A DNA stretch of 58,636 bases from Armatimonadota bacterium (GTDB lineage: Bacteria > Armatimonadota > Armatimonadia > Armatimonadales > Capsulimonadaceae). The notes under the pieces were generated by a model. That model saw nothing but the letters and a program-made list of their open reading frames with translations, was not told where the DNA came from and did no database searches. Where the stretch lies: the NCBI GenBank assembly GCA_019239955.1, contig JAFAZD010000110.1, forward strand, positions 1 through 58,636, read 5' to 3'. Of this stretch, positions 5,962 to 38,126 are shown piece after piece; the first letter of the stretch is position 1; each line of letters starts with the position of its first letter. A program made the position numbers and the translations under genes.

Positions 5962-5980
5962 CGCCTTCGCGCCATGTTCA

Positions 5981-7270
5981 TTACGTGGTCTCCGCCAGCG
6001 CCTCGGCCAGCAGCGTGACGGGGTGGGCGAGGCGAATGTCCAGGCCGTGCGCCTTGACGCCGGATTCGATCCAGGCGAGGCAGCCGGGGTTGGCGGCGGC
6101 GACGATGCTCGCGCCGGTGTCCAAGATATGGTCCAGCTTGCGGGACTGCAATCTTTGGGCCATGTCCGGCTCGGTGAAGTTGTAGATGCCCGCCGAGCCG
6201 CAGCAGATTTCGCTTTCGGGCAGGGGAACCAATGTAACGCCGGGGATCTTTGCCAGCAGGGCGCGGGGCTGGTCCCGGATTCCCTGGCCATGAGCGAGAT
6301 GGCAGGCGTCATGGTAGGCGACGGACACGGGCTGATCGGAAAGGGGCCGGAGGGAGGCGGTCCAGCCGAGGTCGTCCAGGAACTCGCTGACGTCGCGGAC
6401 TTTGGCGGCGAAGGCGGCGGCGCGGGCGGCGTAGGCGGGGTCGTCGGCCAGCAGGTGGCCGTACTCTTTGAGGGTACTCCCGCAGCCGGCGGAGTTGGTG
6501 ACGATGGCGTCCAGGCCGTCAAAGGGCGTGAAGGCGTCAACAAGGGCGCGGGCCATGTCGTCGGCGTCTCGGACGAAGCCGTTGTGCCGGTGCAGCGCGC
6601 CGCAGCAGCCCTGACGGCGGTTGGTGAGCACTTCGCAGCCGTTGGCGGCGAGGACGCGGGCCGTGTCGGCGTTGATGTCGCCGTAGAGGACGCGCATGAC
6701 GCAGCCGGTGAGCATCCCGACGCGCGCGCGTTTCGGGCTGACGGCGGGGGTGAAGGCCGGAAGAGGCTGCCCTGCGGCGGCCCCCACCCGGCTCGCCGAG
6801 GCTCGCCACCCTCCCCCGCTTCGCAGGAGAGGGTTATTTCCCGCCAGGGCGTTGGCGACGGGGGCGGGGATCGCGCCGCCGGTGAGGGCGTCGGCCATCT
6901 TCAGGGTCATCGCCAGGCGGCGGGGGCGTGCGAGCGTATCTAAAAAGGCACGGCGGGACTGGTCCGTGACGACGGGGCGCGCCCGGTCGGCGTTGAGGCG
7001 GGCGCGCGCGACTTCCAATATGCTGCTGTAGGGGACGCCGGAGGGGCAGGCGGTCTCGCAGGCGCGGCAGCCCAGGCAGAGGTCCAGGTGCCGGACCACG
7101 TCGGGATCGGACGGGGAGAGGCGGCCTTCATGGAGGCCGCGCATCAGGACGATGCGGCCGCGCGGGCTGTCGGCCTCGCTGCCGGTCTCCAGATAGGTGG
7201 GACAGGCGCTCAGGCACAGGCCGCAGTGAACGCAGGTCATCAGGTCTTGCTCGTGCTGGCGATCGTTCAT
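5981..7270 (-). CDS. glcF: Glycolate oxidase iron-sulfur subunit-like protein (GlcF family)
   Basis: CVHCGLCLSACPTYLETGSEADSPRGRI...CLGCRACETACPSGV; C-terminal CCGSAGIYN, YHDACHLAHGQGI. Start MNDRQHEQD at 7270. Confidence 0.85.
   Translation of the reverse strand: MNDRQHEQDLMTCVHCGLCLSACPTYLETGSEADSPRGRIVLMRGLHEGRLSPSDPDVVRHLDLCLGCRACETACPSGVPYSSILEVARARLNADRARPVVTDQSRRAFLDTLARPRRLAMTLKMADALTGGAIPAPVANALAGNNPLLRSGGGWRASASRVGAAAGQPLPAFTPAVSPKRARVGMLTGCVMRVLYGDINADTARVLAANGCEVLTNRRQGCCGALHRHNGFVRDADDMARALVDAFTPFDGLDAIVTNSAGCGSTLKEYGHLLADDPAYAARAAAFAAKVRDVSEFLDDLGWTASLRPLSDQPVSVAYHDACHLAHGQGIRDQPRALLAKIPGVTLVPLPESEICCGSAGIYNFTEPDMAQRLQSRKLDHILDTGASIVAAANPGCLAWIESGVKAHGLDIRLAHPVTLLAEALAETT
6770..6840. 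repeat. Family C GC-rich palindromic repeat inside the glcF-like CDS
   Basis: Reverse strand CCCTCTCCTGCGAAGCGGGGGAGGGTGGCGAGCCTCGGCGAGCCGGGTGGGGG matches the repeat at 7370-7418; read in frame as NNPLLRSGGGWRASASRVGAA. Confidence 0.7.
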
Positions 7271-31202: not shown

Positions 31203-31433
31203 TCAGGCGTCGCGATCGGGCGGGGAGAGGTCGGGGGGGACGGCGTGGCCGTTCCAGACGGCCCGCTCGAACTCGTAGGCGGTCCGGGCCAGCTGCTGCA
31301 GCGCCTGGGCCGCCTCGCTCAACGGCTCGGCCTCCGGCGTGATGCGCCAGGCGCGCGGCCTGGCGGGGAGGACCGTCTCCTCGTCCGCCGGAGACTCGGC
31401 GGCCGGAGGCGCCTTGCGGGGTTTGCTGCTCAT
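31203..31433 (-). CDS. Small hypothetical protein whose stop codon lies in a family B repeat end
   Basis: MSSKPRKAPPAAESPADEETVLPARPRAWRITPEAEPLSEAAQALQQLARTAYEFERAVWNGHAVPPDLSPPDRDA; reverse strand GCC TGA ATTCGCCGCT. Confidence 0.5.
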   Translation of the reverse strand: MSSKPRKAPPAAESPADEETVLPARPRAWRITPEAEPLSEAAQALQQLARTAYEFERAVWNGHAVPPDLSPPDRDA

Positions 31434-31509: not shown

Positions 31510-32796
31510 TCAGGCCGCGTTCAGTGCGGCGATCGCCGCCCCCAACAGAAAGCAGAACGGCCGGAGGTACCCGCTGATCTCGTCCCTGTGCCGGTCGCTG
31601 TCGCCGAAGATGTTCGGCGCGCTGGACTGTATGTTCAATACCCCGACCGGCGCGCTCTGATACACGCAGGGCCAGCTGGCGAAGCTGCGGAAGGAGGCCG
31701 CCGCGAAGTAGGCGCGCACGTCCCCGGCGACCGCCTCCGGCTGGTTGACGAGCAGCCGGGTCAGCTCCTCGGCGTTCCGCACGTCGCCGACGACCTGGGC
31801 CTCGCCGCTCAGGAAGGCGCGCGGCGCGCCGAAGAGGGCGGCAGGCGCGCTGCGGTGGACGGGCAGGGCGAGGTGCTGCGGGACGCGGTTGGACTGCTCG
31901 GCCCACTGCCGCAGGATGAGGACGTGCGAGTAGGCGTCGGGACGCCACCGCGCGCCGGTGAAGGCCAGGCCGGGGTAGTCGGCACGCCGCCGGGAGCGGA
32001 CCGGGACGACGCTCATGACGTTGGCGTTGATCTCCAGGCCGCTCTTGTCGCCGTAGAAGGCCGCCGCCACGGAGCGGACCGTCTTCAGAAGCAGGGCAAA
32101 TGTCGTCTCCAGGTCCTTCGGGCCGTAGTCCCCCAGGTAATGCGTCACGTGGACCGCCTCGGCGACGGAGCGGGTGTAGAAGCTCAGGAAGGCGGCACTG
32201 GCGGAGGGTGCGGCCGGGGTCGCCTCGGCCGGCTCGTCAGGAGGCTTCGCCGGCTCCGGCCCGGCGGCAGGCGGCGGATCGGCGGGCGGCGGGACGCTGC
32301 GGATCGTCCCCAGCGGCCCCTTGCGATTCCCCTCCTGATGCGTCAGGCGCAGATAGAGCCGGTCGTAGTCCCCCGGCAGCAGGTAGTAGGTGTGTCCCTG
32401 GATCGGGTCGGGGATGAATTTGACGTCCTCGGCTTGAAAGAGCACGGGGATGAAGCGGACGTCCACCGCGCCCGCCCGGTAGAGCGCGTTGTAGATCAGG
32501 TTGGCCTCCCAGACGACGCCCAGGCCGACGCCCGGCTGTTCCTGATTGGCGACCCGGCGGTAATAGGTCTCGGTGCAGACCATCAGGACGAAGTCGGCCC
32601 GGCGAATCTGCGCCTCCATCCAGCGGGGCCAGCCCTCCGGCGGGTGCGGCTCGTACTGGTCAATGCTCGCGTCCACGCCCTCGCCCCGCAAACGCTCGGA
32701 CAGCCGGTACACCCGATCCGCATGAGCCCCGCCGTCATTCTCATGGGCGTAGCTGATCAGCACGCGCGGCGGCTTGGAGTGTTCCGGGGTCATCAT
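31510..32796 (-). CDS. SEFIR-domain protein with C-terminal GAF-like domain
   Basis: PRVLISYAHENDGGAHADRVYRLSERLRGEGVDASIDQYEPHPPEGWPRWMEAQIRRADFVLMVCTETYYRRV (SEFIR); Pro-rich linker; FRSFASWPCVYQSAPVGVLNIQSSAPNIFGDS (GAF-like). True start MMTPEHSK at 32796. Confidence 0.82.
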   Translation of the reverse strand: MMTPEHSKPPRVLISYAHENDGGAHADRVYRLSERLRGEGVDASIDQYEPHPPEGWPRWMEAQIRRADFVLMVCTETYYRRVANQEQPGVGLGVVWEANLIYNALYRAGAVDVRFIPVLFQAEDVKFIPDPIQGHTYYLLPGDYDRLYLRLTHQEGNRKGPLGTIRSVPPPADPPPAAGPEPAKPPDEPAEATPAAPSASAAFLSFYTRSVAEAVHVTHYLGDYGPKDLETTFALLLKTVRSVAAAFYGDKSGLEINANVMSVVPVRSRRRADYPGLAFTGARWRPDAYSHVLILRQWAEQSNRVPQHLALPVHRSAPAALFGAPRAFLSGEAQVVGDVRNAEELTRLLVNQPEAVAGDVRAYFAAASFRSFASWPCVYQSAPVGVLNIQSSAPNIFGDSDRHRDEISGYLRPFCFLLGAAIAALNAA

Positions 32797-33356
32797 CCTC
32801 TCAGCGTATTCGCGCCGGGAGGCGCGGGAATGATCAGCGAGGGGACGGAGGCGACGGCGGCGAGCAGGTCGGCGAAGGCGATCAGGGAGCCGCGAGCCGA
32901 CGCCAGCGCCCGGCGCAGCTCGGCGTTTTGATCCCACCGCTTCTCCCACTTTACGGCGGACACGTCGGCGGGCTTGCGGCTCTCGTAGTCGAGCAGCAGC
33001 GGGTGCCAGTGGGCGAGAAGGGGACGCAGGACGGCGTTGAGCACGGCGACGGCCAGGTAGCCGAAGCTGAATTTGCCCTGGCCCTTGGGCTGGGCCACGA
33101 CCGGGCCGTGCGCGCGCAGGATGCCGCGCGTGATGTTGAAGAGGGCGTACAGAGACGACAGGGCCTCGCGCAACAGTCCCTCCTCCGGCCCCAGCTCGGC
33201 CACGGAGATGCGCGTGACCAACTCCACGTACATCTCCCAGGCGGCGTTGCGCTCGTTCTCGTCGGGCTGCCACTTGCCGGAGACTTTCCCCAGGAACGGC
33301 AGGGTCAACTCGACATTGACTTCGGACAGGTTCACGCGGTCGGTCAGCTTGTTCAT
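32793..33356 (-). CDS. Hypothetical alpha-helical protein, partner of the SEFIR protein
   Basis: MNKLTDRVNLSEVNVELTLPFLGKVSGKWQPDENERNAAWEMYVELVTRISVAELGPEEGLLREALSSLYALFNITRGIL...; ATGA overlap with the SEFIR gene. Confidence 0.75.
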   Translation of the reverse strand: MNKLTDRVNLSEVNVELTLPFLGKVSGKWQPDENERNAAWEMYVELVTRISVAELGPEEGLLREALSSLYALFNITRGILRAHGPVVAQPKGQGKFSFGYLAVAVLNAVLRPLLAHWHPLLLDYESRKPADVSAVKWEKRWDQNAELRRALASARGSLIAFADLLAAVASVPSLIIPAPPGANTLRG

Positions 33357-33429: not shown

Positions 33430-36400
33430 TCAGGGATGGCTGGCGCTGACCGTGAGGGCCTGCGGCGCGGCGGTGGCGACGCGCTCCGGGTTGTAGTAGG
33501 GGTAGACCCGGCTCAGGGACGTGCGCGTCTTGATCGGGTACTTCGCCTTGATCTGATAGGTCAGCGTGACCGTCCGGCCCGCCTCCAGCTTCTCCATGTA
33601 GACGATGATCTGCCGCGCGGCGACCGTGTACTTGCTGATGGTCCCGCCCTGCACGGCGGCGTCCAGGGCGTCCGTCAGCGGCGTGAAGCCGGGCGGCAGG
33701 CCCAGGTCAATCAGCGGCATCTCGGCGGTCTTGTCCGTGTTGTTGCGGACGGTGGCCGTGACGGTCGCCGTGTCGTCCTGGGCCAGCGTCGTCTTGTCAT
33801 AGGCAACCCGGATGGAGAGCGGCGCGATTGCCTCCGGCCCCGACGGGACTTTGTCCCAGGGCAGGTAGTAGCGCCCGACGATCTGGTACAGCGGCGCGCC
33901 CTCGCCCTGATAGCGCAGGCCGATCTGATTGTCGCCGCCGTGGACGAACTTGGCAAGGTCCGCCTGCCGCATCACGTCGCTGTCCTCGGGCGTGAGCGCA
34001 AAGGTGGCCGCCGTCTGGCCGTTGGCGAGCACTGTGACCGTGCCGTTGCCGCCGCCCAGGGCGTTGCCGCTGGCGGAGAGCAGGGCCTTGAGCGACCAGA
34101 CCGTGCCCTGCGTGCTGCCCCAGACGCCGAAGCTGTTCTTGCTCTGGACCAGGTACGTCAGCGCCTTGCTGACGAAGCCGGCGTTTCGCCCCCAGCGGAC
34201 CAGGCCGTAGGCGGCCAGGCCGGTCGTCTCCAGGTCGGCCCCCTGCCCCTCCGCGCCCGTGAAGGTCTGCGTGTCGCTCTTCCAGTAGGCGGTCTTGTCG
34301 GTCTGGGTCGCCAGGGCGATCAGGCCGTTCGCGGCCTGCGCGGCGGCGTCGCCCCCCGGCTCCGCCTGCGTCAAGAGGTTCAGGATGACGGCCAGCGTGT
34401 ACGGGTCCTTGGCCTCGCCCAGATGGGCCTTGACGTAGTCCACGCCGCGCGCCACCTCCGGCCCTGAGTACCCGCTCTCGGCCAGCGCCCACGCGACATA
34501 GGCCGTCGTTCGCAGCGCCCCCGTCTGGCGGTTGATGATGCCCTCCGCGATGCCCTGGCCCGTCTCCTCCCAGGTTCCGTCGGCCTTCTGCCGGCCCGCC
34601 AGCCACTGCTGCGTCCGGGTGATGAGCGCGGGGTCCACGTCATGCACCTTCGCCATGTCGCCGAATTCCAGCAGGCCGTAGGCGGTCAGGATTTGATGCG
34701 CCGGCGCGCTGCCGAACCAGGAGAAGCCGCCGCCCGGCGTCTCAAACGTGACCAGGCGCTGGTAGCCGACGTTGATGTACCCCTCGGCCTTCATCTGCAA
34801 CTCCGGGTTGATGTGCTTGGTCTGCTTCAAATAGTCCAAAATCAGCACGTCCGGGTAGGTGGTGGAGCTGGTCTGCTCGAAGCAGCCGTTGGGCATCTGC
34901 AGCAGGCCGTCCAGCCCGTCCACGACCTGGCTGAACGTGCCGGGGTAGAGCTTGACCCAGACCGTGCTCGCCCCCGCGACGGCGTCGGCGGGGATGGTGA
35001 CGACGGTGTCCGCGCTGCCGTCCAGCCGGTCATTGACCGACGTGCGAACCTCCTTGCCGTTCGGCAGCACGTCTATGGTGCGGCGGACGGCATCGGAGAG
35101 GCTTGTCCCGCGCGCCGTGACCGTCAGCGGGAAGTGGCCGATGGTGTTCACGGTGAGGGGGTAGTAGACGACCGTGACCTGGTTCGGCCCGACGTGCGTG
35201 ACCTGCCGCGACGGCCCTTGCAGGGTGAACCAGGGCTGCGGGTCCAGGGTCAGCGTCACGTCCTGCGCCTGCGGCAGATAGTTGTAGACGGACACGGGGA
35301 TCTGCACGCTGTCGCCCTGGGTCAGCGCGACGGGCAGGTCCAGGTCCACGAAGAAGTCCTGGAAGACCTTGATCGGCGCGTCGCCGCTGCCGAGCTGCCC
35401 GGCGGCGCTGCTGCCCAGGGTGCTGACGCGCCAGGTGGTGATGGAGTCCGCCAGCGGCACGCGCGCCTCGGCCTGGCCGTTCGCGTCGGTGATGAGGGCC
35501 GGGTTCCAGTAGAGGGTCTCCGGGAAGAACTGGCGCACGCGCGGCGGCTCGCCGCCGATGGCGGCGGTTTTGGAGAACAGCCCCGCGTCCACCGCCCCCG
35601 CAAGGACGACTCCCATCGAATTGGCCGCGCGGCCATGAACTTCATCGGCAGCGCCGCCGGGGAAGCCGCCACCGCCGCCCCCAAACCCACCGAATCCACC
35701 CCCTGCAACGGCTCCCAGCGCCCTGAAGCGCATCATCGGCGGCTGCGGTCTCTCGTTGATGTCGTCCGCCGTGCCCCACAGGCCATCCGGGCCGGCGCTG
35801 CTCAGGGTCCAGTAGCCGTCATAGTCAGTCCGGCCGTACAGTTCGGCCTTGTACGGACGGCCCCAGGGGTCACGCAAGTCCGCTTCATGCAGGTAGCCCC
35901 GTTCGGCCAGCAAGTACAAGGGTTGCCCGGCAGCCAGCGCCTGGCTGGTATCGGCCCGGTACTTCCCCAGTGCCTGCGCGATTCTCTGATGAGTCCGGGC
36001 CATCGCCTCCGCCACCTGCGCCTTCACTTTCTCCCAGCGCGCCTGGTAGGTGTTCACCTGGAAGTCAAAATCGGTGCGGGGCGGCACGGCGGCGAGCAGC
36101 ATCGCCGCAGCCCGCTGGCGCGCCGGCTCCGGGGCCTTGACCTGGGCCGGCTCCATCAGCCCCGTCGGCGATAGGCCGTGAATCTCATACTTCGGCTCCA
36201 TCAGCTCTTTTTCCAGGGTGAAGTAAATCTTTTCCAGCCCCGGCTTCAGCTCCGAGAGCGCGAACACGCTCTCGTCAACAATTGCCACTCCCAGCGCGGT
36301 GCTGACGGGGCTTCCCTTCTGGTCATGGACGGCGAAGCGAAGCGTGGCGTCCGTGCCCGGCCCGTACACGCCTCTGTCGGCGGCGACCCGGACGCTCAGA

Positions 36401-38049
36401 TCGTCCGCCGGTGAGACGATGACGGTGCGGGTGTCCCGGACGATATCCTCATTGGGGAGAATCTTGTAGGCGTGGATCTCCAGCGTGCCGACCATGTCCG
36501 GCGTCACGTTCAGCGGAACCTGCGCCGCCCCGTTCTGCATGTCGGTAGCCTGGGTCAAGATGGTCTGACCGTCGCGGATGACGTCAATGTAGAGTGTGCC
36601 GGTCTTGACGGTGGACACGGCGGCGAGGGTGAGCCGGTCGCCGACCTTCGCCAGCGGCTTGTCCACGCGCAGCAGGACCCCCTCCTCGGCGGGCGCGGCG
36701 GCCAGCTGCTGGAGGGTCGTCGCCACGTGTCCGTCGGCGTCCGTCGCCTGGACGCTGAGAACTACGGGGCCATTTCCCGGAACAAAGGAATATGTCGCCA
36801 GCCCCAGATCGTCCGTGGCGAGCACGGTGGGCGCGGCGCCGCCGTCGGACACCCGCAGGAGGGCGCGCCGGAGCGGCTGGCCGTCCGGCGTGGCGGCGGC
36901 GATGTAGACGCGGTTCTGCACGCCGGCCACGAGGCCGCGGCTTTCGGGGACCACCGCCAGCAGGATGGGATCCTTGACGACGGGCACCGTGACATGCACC
37001 TCCTGTGCGTGGTCGGCGGTGTCCTTCAGCGTCCCCGCGAACTCCACCACCGCCCTGCCCTGCTCGAACGGCTGGCCGACGAACGAGTCCGGCAGCGTGT
37101 ATTGGAATGGGTAGCTGCCCTCGGCGTCCGTCGTCCCGTTGACCATGCCCAATTCGGTGACGCCGATGTCGACCGTGTTGACGGCGACCGTGACCTGCCC
37201 GCCCGCGACCGGCTTGCCGAAGAAGTAATGCGCCTGGACGGTGCCGTGGACGGTCTCGCCGGGCAAGTAATAGGGCCTGTCGGTCGTCAGCGCGACCTTG
37301 AACTTGGGCAGGACGTAGCGCTCCACGCGCACCTTCTTCTCCGTCTGCCCTTCCGGCAGGACGGCGCGCAGCGCGAACGTGCCCATGTTCACCTCGTCCG
37401 CCAGCACGAAGTCGGCGGACGCAACGCCGAACGGCGACAGCGTCCGGCGCTGCTTGAAGACCTTGTTGCCGCGCGCGTCCTCCGCCTCGAACACCAGCGA
37501 CTCCTCGGCGACGGCCCGCCGGGTCCCCATGTCCAGGGCCAGCGCGCGCAGGTGGATGGTCTGCCCCGGCTGGTAGACCGGCTTGTCCGCCGTCAGCAGG
37601 ATTTGCGTTGCCTCGGCCACGTCGATCGGCTGCGTGACCTCGTCCGCGCCGAGCGGGGAACTCACGGACACAGTCAGCCGGTACGGCCCGGCGGCCCCGG
37701 CGGGCGCACGGAACCGGGCGTCCAGCGTACCCAGCGGCGTCGTCCGGCCGGAGAACAGGGGGAGGGGCGTCCCCGCCGGCTTGCCGTCGTCCAGGCGGAC
37801 GAGCGACAGGCTCACGCGGGCGCGGGCCGGCAGGCCGCTCCGGTGGTCCGAGACCACCACGCGCAGGGCCGCCGGGCCGCCGCGCAGCCAGCGCCTCTGG
37901 CCGAGTACGCGCGTCTCCAGCGGCGACAGCGTGACATCGCGCTTGACGAGGGTTTCCGTGGCCCGCGCGGGCGGCGTATCGGCCAGTCCGGCGGGGAGCG
38001 CCGCGAAGCAAAGCGCGAGGCAAAGGACTCGGAGTCGGGAGCGGGACAT
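33430..38049 (-). CDS. Alpha-2-macroglobulin family protein with GspG-like insert
   Basis: MG-type N-terminal repeats (ADKPVYQPGQTIHLRALALD), thioester-like MPNGCFEQTSSTTYPDVL, TED helices, C-terminal receptor-binding-like domain; MSRSRL start with signal peptide. Confidence 0.9.
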   Translation of the reverse strand: MSRSRLRVLCLALCFAALPAGLADTPPARATETLVKRDVTLSPLETRVLGQRRWLRGGPAALRVVVSDHRSGLPARARVSLSLVRLDDGKPAGTPLPLFSGRTTPLGTLDARFRAPAGAAGPYRLTVSVSSPLGADEVTQPIDVAEATQILLTADKPVYQPGQTIHLRALALDMGTRRAVAEESLVFEAEDARGNKVFKQRRTLSPFGVASADFVLADEVNMGTFALRAVLPEGQTEKKVRVERYVLPKFKVALTTDRPYYLPGETVHGTVQAHYFFGKPVAGGQVTVAVNTVDIGVTELGMVNGTTDAEGSYPFQYTLPDSFVGQPFEQGRAVVEFAGTLKDTADHAQEVHVTVPVVKDPILLAVVPESRGLVAGVQNRVYIAAATPDGQPLRRALLRVSDGGAAPTVLATDDLGLATYSFVPGNGPVVLSVQATDADGHVATTLQQLAAAPAEEGVLLRVDKPLAKVGDRLTLAAVSTVKTGTLYIDVIRDGQTILTQATDMQNGAAQVPLNVTPDMVGTLEIHAYKILPNEDIVRDTRTVIVSPADDLSVRVAADRGVYGPGTDATLRFAVHDQKGSPVSTALGVAIVDESVFALSELKPGLEKIYFTLEKELMEPKYEIHGLSPTGLMEPAQVKAPEPARQRAAAMLLAAVPPRTDFDFQVNTYQARWEKVKAQVAEAMARTHQRIAQALGKYRADTSQALAAGQPLYLLAERGYLHEADLRDPWGRPYKAELYGRTDYDGYWTLSSAGPDGLWGTADDINERPQPPMMRFRALGAVAGGGFGGFGGGGGGFPGGAADEVHGRAANSMGVVLAGAVDAGLFSKTAAIGGEPPRVRQFFPETLYWNPALITDANGQAEARVPLADSITTWRVSTLGSSAAGQLGSGDAPIKVFQDFFVDLDLPVALTQGDSVQIPVSVYNYLPQAQDVTLTLDPQPWFTLQGPSRQVTHVGPNQVTVVYYPLTVNTIGHFPLTVTARGTSLSDAVRRTIDVLPNGKEVRTSVNDRLDGSADTVVTIPADAVAGASTVWVKLYPGTFSQVVDGLDGLLQMPNGCFEQTSSTTYPDVLILDYLKQTKHINPELQMKAEGYINVGYQRLVTFETPGGGFSWFGSAPAHQILTAYGLLEFGDMAKVHDVDPALITRTQQWLAGRQKADGTWEETGQGIAEGIINRQTGALRTTAYVAWALAESGYSGPEVARGVDYVKAHLGEAKDPYTLAVILNLLTQAEPGGDAAAQAANGLIALATQTDKTAYWKSDTQTFTGAEGQGADLETTGLAAYGLVRWGRNAGFVSKALTYLVQSKNSFGVWGSTQGTVWSLKALLSASGNALGGGNGTVTVLANGQTAATFALTPEDSDVMRQADLAKFVHGGDNQIGLRYQGEGAPLYQIVGRYYLPWDKVPSGPEAIAPLSIRVAYDKTTLAQDDTATVTATVRNNTDKTAEMPLIDLGLPPGFTPLTDALDAAVQGGTISKYTVAARQIIVYMEKLEAGRTVTLTYQIKAKYPIKTRTSLSRVYPYYNPERVATAAPQALTVSASHP

Positions 38050-38126
38050 GACAGTTTCCTCGATCCGGCGCGGCGGCGTCAAGTTTGGAGTTCCGCGCCG
38101 TCTCATTAGACACAGGAACGCCCGCC

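Follow-up and report, generated by a model that had tools for sequence, protein, structure and literature searches.

Nucleotide-centred conflict systems, as reportedly set out by Burroughs in 2015, involve SLOG, SLATT and pYEATS. bSEFIR is a single-gene system. Bacterial SEFIR is listed among the NAD+-depleting defences (PMC11559045, PMC12322248), the TIR and receptor genes of Thoeris are carried in one operon (PMC12847820), and a conflict system of two genes with variable C-termini, EACC1-caspase, has been described (PMC7159879). Here we analysed a gene pair found in 58,636 nucleotides of Armatimonadota DNA (this whole stretch is called the window below), in which a SEFIR protein is preceded by a small helical protein. 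Our main reading, to which we give a probability of about 0.62, is that the pair forms a TIR-superfamily immune module, made of a SEFIR NADase with an exchangeable GAF-like sensor and of a dedicated partner that would couple it to abortive infection.

Both genes lie on the minus strand. Gene 1 (32793..33356) encodes the 187-aa helical partner (family A1), which belongs to no curated family, and gene 2 (31510..32796) encodes a 428-aa protein with a SEFIR domain, a linker and a GAF-like region. The original prediction had described two ORFs at these coordinates and on this strand, the second starting within the stop of the first, and had called them tightly coupled. Sequence and codon usage agree with all of this, as the TGA of gene 1 is embedded in the ATGA at the start of gene 2 (32793..32796, minus strand). 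Indeed, the codon-position GC of gene 1 (0.68/0.45/0.90) and gene 2 (0.70/0.49/0.91) matches the pattern of the real genes of the window, which indicates that both are coding; the 621-aa ORF in the frame of gene 2 is only its upstream extension across gene 1. Just downstream of gene 2, a 75-aa ORF (31203..31430, minus strand, codon-position GC 0.75/0.61/0.93), assigned to no family and without Pfam or PADLOC match, is a possible third gene near the module. The window is no defence island, the flanks coding for MsrA, LarA, alpha-2-macroglobulin and TPR proteins. The bacterial alpha-2-macroglobulin gene (33430-38106) precedes gene 1 on this strand, its end 73 bp away, and is probably unrelated to the pair. 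The source genome, a draft in 409 contigs, has an estimated contamination of 5.6%.

The AlphaFold2 model of the gene 1 protein (pLDDT 81) consists of a beta hairpin (residues 13-29, 33270..33320, minus strand) and a four-helix bundle (residues 33-169, 32850..33260, minus strand) which carries the conserved motifs AAWxMYVEL, LREALSSLY and LRPxLAKWH. The "mainly helical" protein first proposed is therefore nearly right, the bundle being there but accompanied by a modelled hairpin. The original prediction did not recognise the pair as a named system, and an uncatalogued partner is supported: neither gene 1 nor 14 of its relatives has a significant match in Pfam, PADLOC or NCBIfam, nothing in the PDB matches gene 1 by sequence or fold, and Foldseek returned no structural homologue of the model at E<=0.001 in the PDB or BFVD. 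Gene 1 does not match PF19953 (EACC1) and has no TM helix. We found no earlier account of the helical family in the literature searched, which left out some key papers, among them the 2015 paper on nucleotide-centred systems. The R-x6-H of LRPFLAKWH resembles the HEPN ribonuclease motif; this assignment was rejected, its histidine being a glutamine in one subgroup and Foldseek giving no significant match.

The strongest evidence on the role of gene 1 comes from the neighbours of its relatives. At 27 chromosomal loci of the family, distributed over 26 genomes, we counted TIR-superfamily domains within 2 kb and compared them with the numbers expected from the density of the same domains in the same genomes. 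Such a domain was found at 21 of the 27 loci versus 0.32 expected (P ~1e-35, an optimistic value because a few loci are close relatives, the effect being very large nonetheless). For ThsB_TIR the figures were 18/27 versus 0.08, and for TIR_2 9/27 versus 0.24. As TIR genes played no role in finding the loci, this association is not built in. Moreover, in 11 of the 13 genomes with exactly one ThsB_TIR match, this match and the family gene are 141-917 bp apart; the two exceptions are G765 and the genome of the window, where SEFIR stands in place of ThsB_TIR. Gaps between family genes and their neighbours are short, or replaced by overlaps. No Pfam-detectable TIR lies within 2 kb at 6 of the 27 loci (G108, G295, G296, G322, G473 and G765). 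The original prediction had made its own survival depend on a link of the 187-aa family to SEFIR/TIR genes elsewhere. Such a link is strongly present, at the 21 loci. No second SEFIR pairing was found, the partner elsewhere being a TIR protein. The tight coupling and the uncatalogued partner are supported, and the prediction as a whole is supported in part. Since members of the family adjoin TIR-type immune genes in both bacteria and archaea, the helical protein probably is a regular partner of immune enzymes of this class.

Relatives of gene 1 occur in Bacteroidota, Actinomycetota, Pseudomonadota, Bacillota, one Methanophagales archaeon and elsewhere in the phylum of the window, and some are borne on plasmids of Streptomyces, Calothrix, Photobacterium, Vibrio, Ruegeria and rhizobia. 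By profile the family is rare and patchy, being found in 6/291, 5/399, 7/346, 2/397 and 4/58 genomes (about 1,500 surveyed, each count including the seed genome). None of 50,697 phage records carries it, and one IMG/VR contig does. Hydropathy indicates an N-terminal TM segment in about 11 of 39 members; most members, that of the window included, are soluble and devoid of an effector domain. One Calothrix plasmid (L011) carries two copies of the family (2431-2949 and 5971-6468), with four TIR proteins nearby.

Where the family gene comes first, the enzyme encoded downstream is often a TIR or SEFIR protein with variable extras; in the remaining arrangements a short ThsB_TIR gene usually lies upstream. 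A TIR-WD40 protein adjoins the Streptomyces members, and the downstream enzyme of Photobacterium has a long C-terminal region that looks STAND/TPR-like by sequence. TIR and SLOG cluster2 are fused beside the helical gene at one locus (L056, 6422-8743) and encoded separately at another (L057, 6405-8581). An Oscillospiraceae member adjoins a SLATT protein (SLATT_1), and a pYEATS protein lies beside a family member. In three rhizobial plasmid proteins the family domain is fused to the N-terminus of a patatin-like phospholipase, and TIR genes lie close by; the Pfam patatin score was just below the cut-off in the one fusion tested, and the Mesorhizobium record annotates patatin. The rhizobial plasmid clusters (L015, L017 and L019) contain several TIR genes around the helical-domain/patatin fusion and have the look of a multi-TIR system. 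At L007 and L008 the helical gene follows genes for an HSP90-like ATPase and a TPR-like protein, with no recognised TIR nearby. At L003, L005 and L033 the ThsB_TIR neighbours have a further match, to PADLOC PDC-M50B, a candidate component of phage defence.

Gene 1 of the window belongs to a clade of nine members (support 100/98), up to 65% identical, with archaeal, Bacteroidota and Actinomycetota representatives. ThsB_TIR is found beside the other eight, and SEFIR-GAF only at the window locus, which is also the one place where we saw the helical family paired with a SEFIR protein. As the rest of the clade pairs with ThsB_TIR, we consider, from the sequences, that SEFIR-GAF has probably replaced the original partner here. 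Gene 1 would thus work with different enzymes of the TIR superfamily, which suggests that it recognises either the fold or a product that they have in common.

The N-terminal SEFIR domain attributed to gene 2 in the original prediction is clearly there (residues 11-151, 32344..32766, minus strand; Pfam PF08357, 2.1e-12). TIR_2 is matched as well (9e-12), and PADLOC bSEFIR matches gene 2 at 2.7e-40 within the SEFIR domain only (profile positions 37-196 of 412). Glu97 of the GVVWE motif (32506-32508, minus strand) is by analogy the candidate catalytic residue, and is invariant, within GVxWE, in the 5/5 SEFIR proteins compared, including a second one from the same genome. In this second protein (L001, C368:25041-25406) SEFIR is fused to a STAND-like NTPase region, by eye of STAND/NB-ARC type, and to a C-terminus that looks TPR-like, an NLR-like architecture. 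In gene 2, a Pro/Ala-rich linker (residues 168-196, 32209..32295, minus strand) leads to the C-terminal domain (31513..32211, minus strand). Its GAF-like nature, as first proposed, has to be qualified: gene 2 alone matches GAF at E 0.011, below the cut-off, but its C-terminus (196-428) is 35% identical (E 6.8e-41) to that of a caspase-like protein of the same phylum which matches GAF at 0.0016, and we kept the label on this account. The caspase match of this relative is 0.00065, just below the cut-off, and the gene next to its own is EACC1-like (E 0.00095, again short of the curated cut-off). A second, more distant match is to another caspase-like protein; on plasmids this C-terminus was not found. 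That SEFIR and caspase-like proteins both carry the GAF-like part supports taking it for an exchangeable module, the simplest role of which would be that of a sensor. The single-sequence model of gene 2 (pLDDT 39) was left unused.

Our best reading is that the two genes form a TIR-type abortive-infection module in which the helical partner is constant and the sensor exchangeable. The GAF-like domain would detect an infection cue, making activation ligand-gated, and SEFIR would then cleave NAD+. Gene 1 would bind the TIR/SEFIR protein, or respond to its product, to control or relay its activity and couple it to growth arrest or death; the solubility of the stand-alone members favours an adaptor and the patatin fusions a receptor. 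The pair may act in phage defence. In support are the TIR linkage, the short gaps and overlaps, the partner swap, the patatin fusions beside TIR genes, the SLATT and SLOG neighbours, the conserved Glu97, the GAF-like domain shared with caspase-like proteins, and the listing of SEFIR among NAD+-depleting defences (PMC11559045, PMC12322248). The reading is weakened by the lack of a defence island in the window, by the 6 of 27 loci without a Pfam-detectable TIR within 2 kb, by the single SEFIR pairing and by the assignment of Glu97 by analogy.

Three other readings have to be weighed. Gene 1 could be a receptor or effector of an ADP-ribose-type signal that the TIR/SEFIR enzyme produces; its family would then mark a Thoeris-like type whose output is patatin, SLATT or of a membrane kind. 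The fusions to patatin parallel the Thoeris effectors that carry SLOG or macro receptors, the N-terminal TM helix of about 11/39 members and the common operon of Thoeris TIR and receptor genes (PMC12847820) point the same way, and partner swapping agrees with a chemical signal common to the enzymes. However, most members, like that of the window, are soluble without an effector domain, two loci already have SLOG, and the conserved KWH histidine is replaced by Gln in one subgroup; we thus hold this reading to be possible but rather unlikely. We are equally tentative about its boldest form, in which gene 1 would found a new family of receptors or effectors of TIR-made ADP-ribose signals, one more Thoeris-like class, with outputs that are soluble, anchored in the membrane or fused to a phospholipase, re-wired here to a SEFIR protein with a GAF-like sensor.

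It is unlikely that gene 2 is a bSEFIR-type NADase working by itself, with gene 1 as no more than its inhibitor or antitoxin-like partner: many toxin-antitoxin pairs do have overlapping genes with the small one first, and the bSEFIR match is strong (2.7e-40), but it is limited to the SEFIR part, and conservation across unrelated TIR partners and fusion to a phospholipase would be unusual for an antitoxin. A GAF-gated module of host signalling or stress response, unrelated to phages, seems improbable. GAF domains commonly bind small molecules, and the surroundings of the pair are housekeeping genes; yet the patchy cross-domain spread and plasmid carriage of the family suggest a transferable accessory system. 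We prefer the immune-module reading. A conserved protein family that no curated model describes is linked to immune genes of TIR type, in archaea as well as in several bacterial phyla. Should it be the regulator of these genes or the receptor of their signal, a partner open to testing would be at hand for many "orphan" TIR genes, and the patatin fusions together with the SEFIR swap would illustrate how outputs and enzymes are exchanged.

The gene pair corresponds fully to none of the systems Thoeris, bSEFIR and EACC1. Like bSEFIR (PADLOC PDLC03957, a single-gene defence protein), gene 2 has an N-terminal SEFIR domain (E 2.7e-40), but its C-terminus is outside the profile match (37-196 of 412) and it is overlapped through ATGA by a second gene, of a TIR-linked family. 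As in Thoeris (types I, II and IV), an enzyme of the TIR superfamily has an operon partner, and most relatives of gene 1 adjoin ThsB_TIR. However, gene 1 is of an unrelated helical family and not ThsA, and none of ten nearby genes encodes a ThsA effector (SIR2-SLOG, TM-macro or caspase). The enzyme of the pair matches SEFIR/TIR_2 in place of ThsB_TIR, the only PF08937 match of the genome being on another contig. Family members lie beside SLOG cluster2, SLATT_1 and pYEATS proteins as in the nucleotide-centred conflict systems, but these three have Pfam models and the helical family has none. As for EACC1-caspase, gene 1 is not EACC1, gene 2 is a SEFIR protein and neither a caspase nor a cyclase, and the C-terminus alone is common to the two; nevertheless both combine a small 5' gene with a 3' enzyme of variable C-terminus, and that of gene 2 recurs on a caspase-like protein whose gene has an EACC1-like neighbour.
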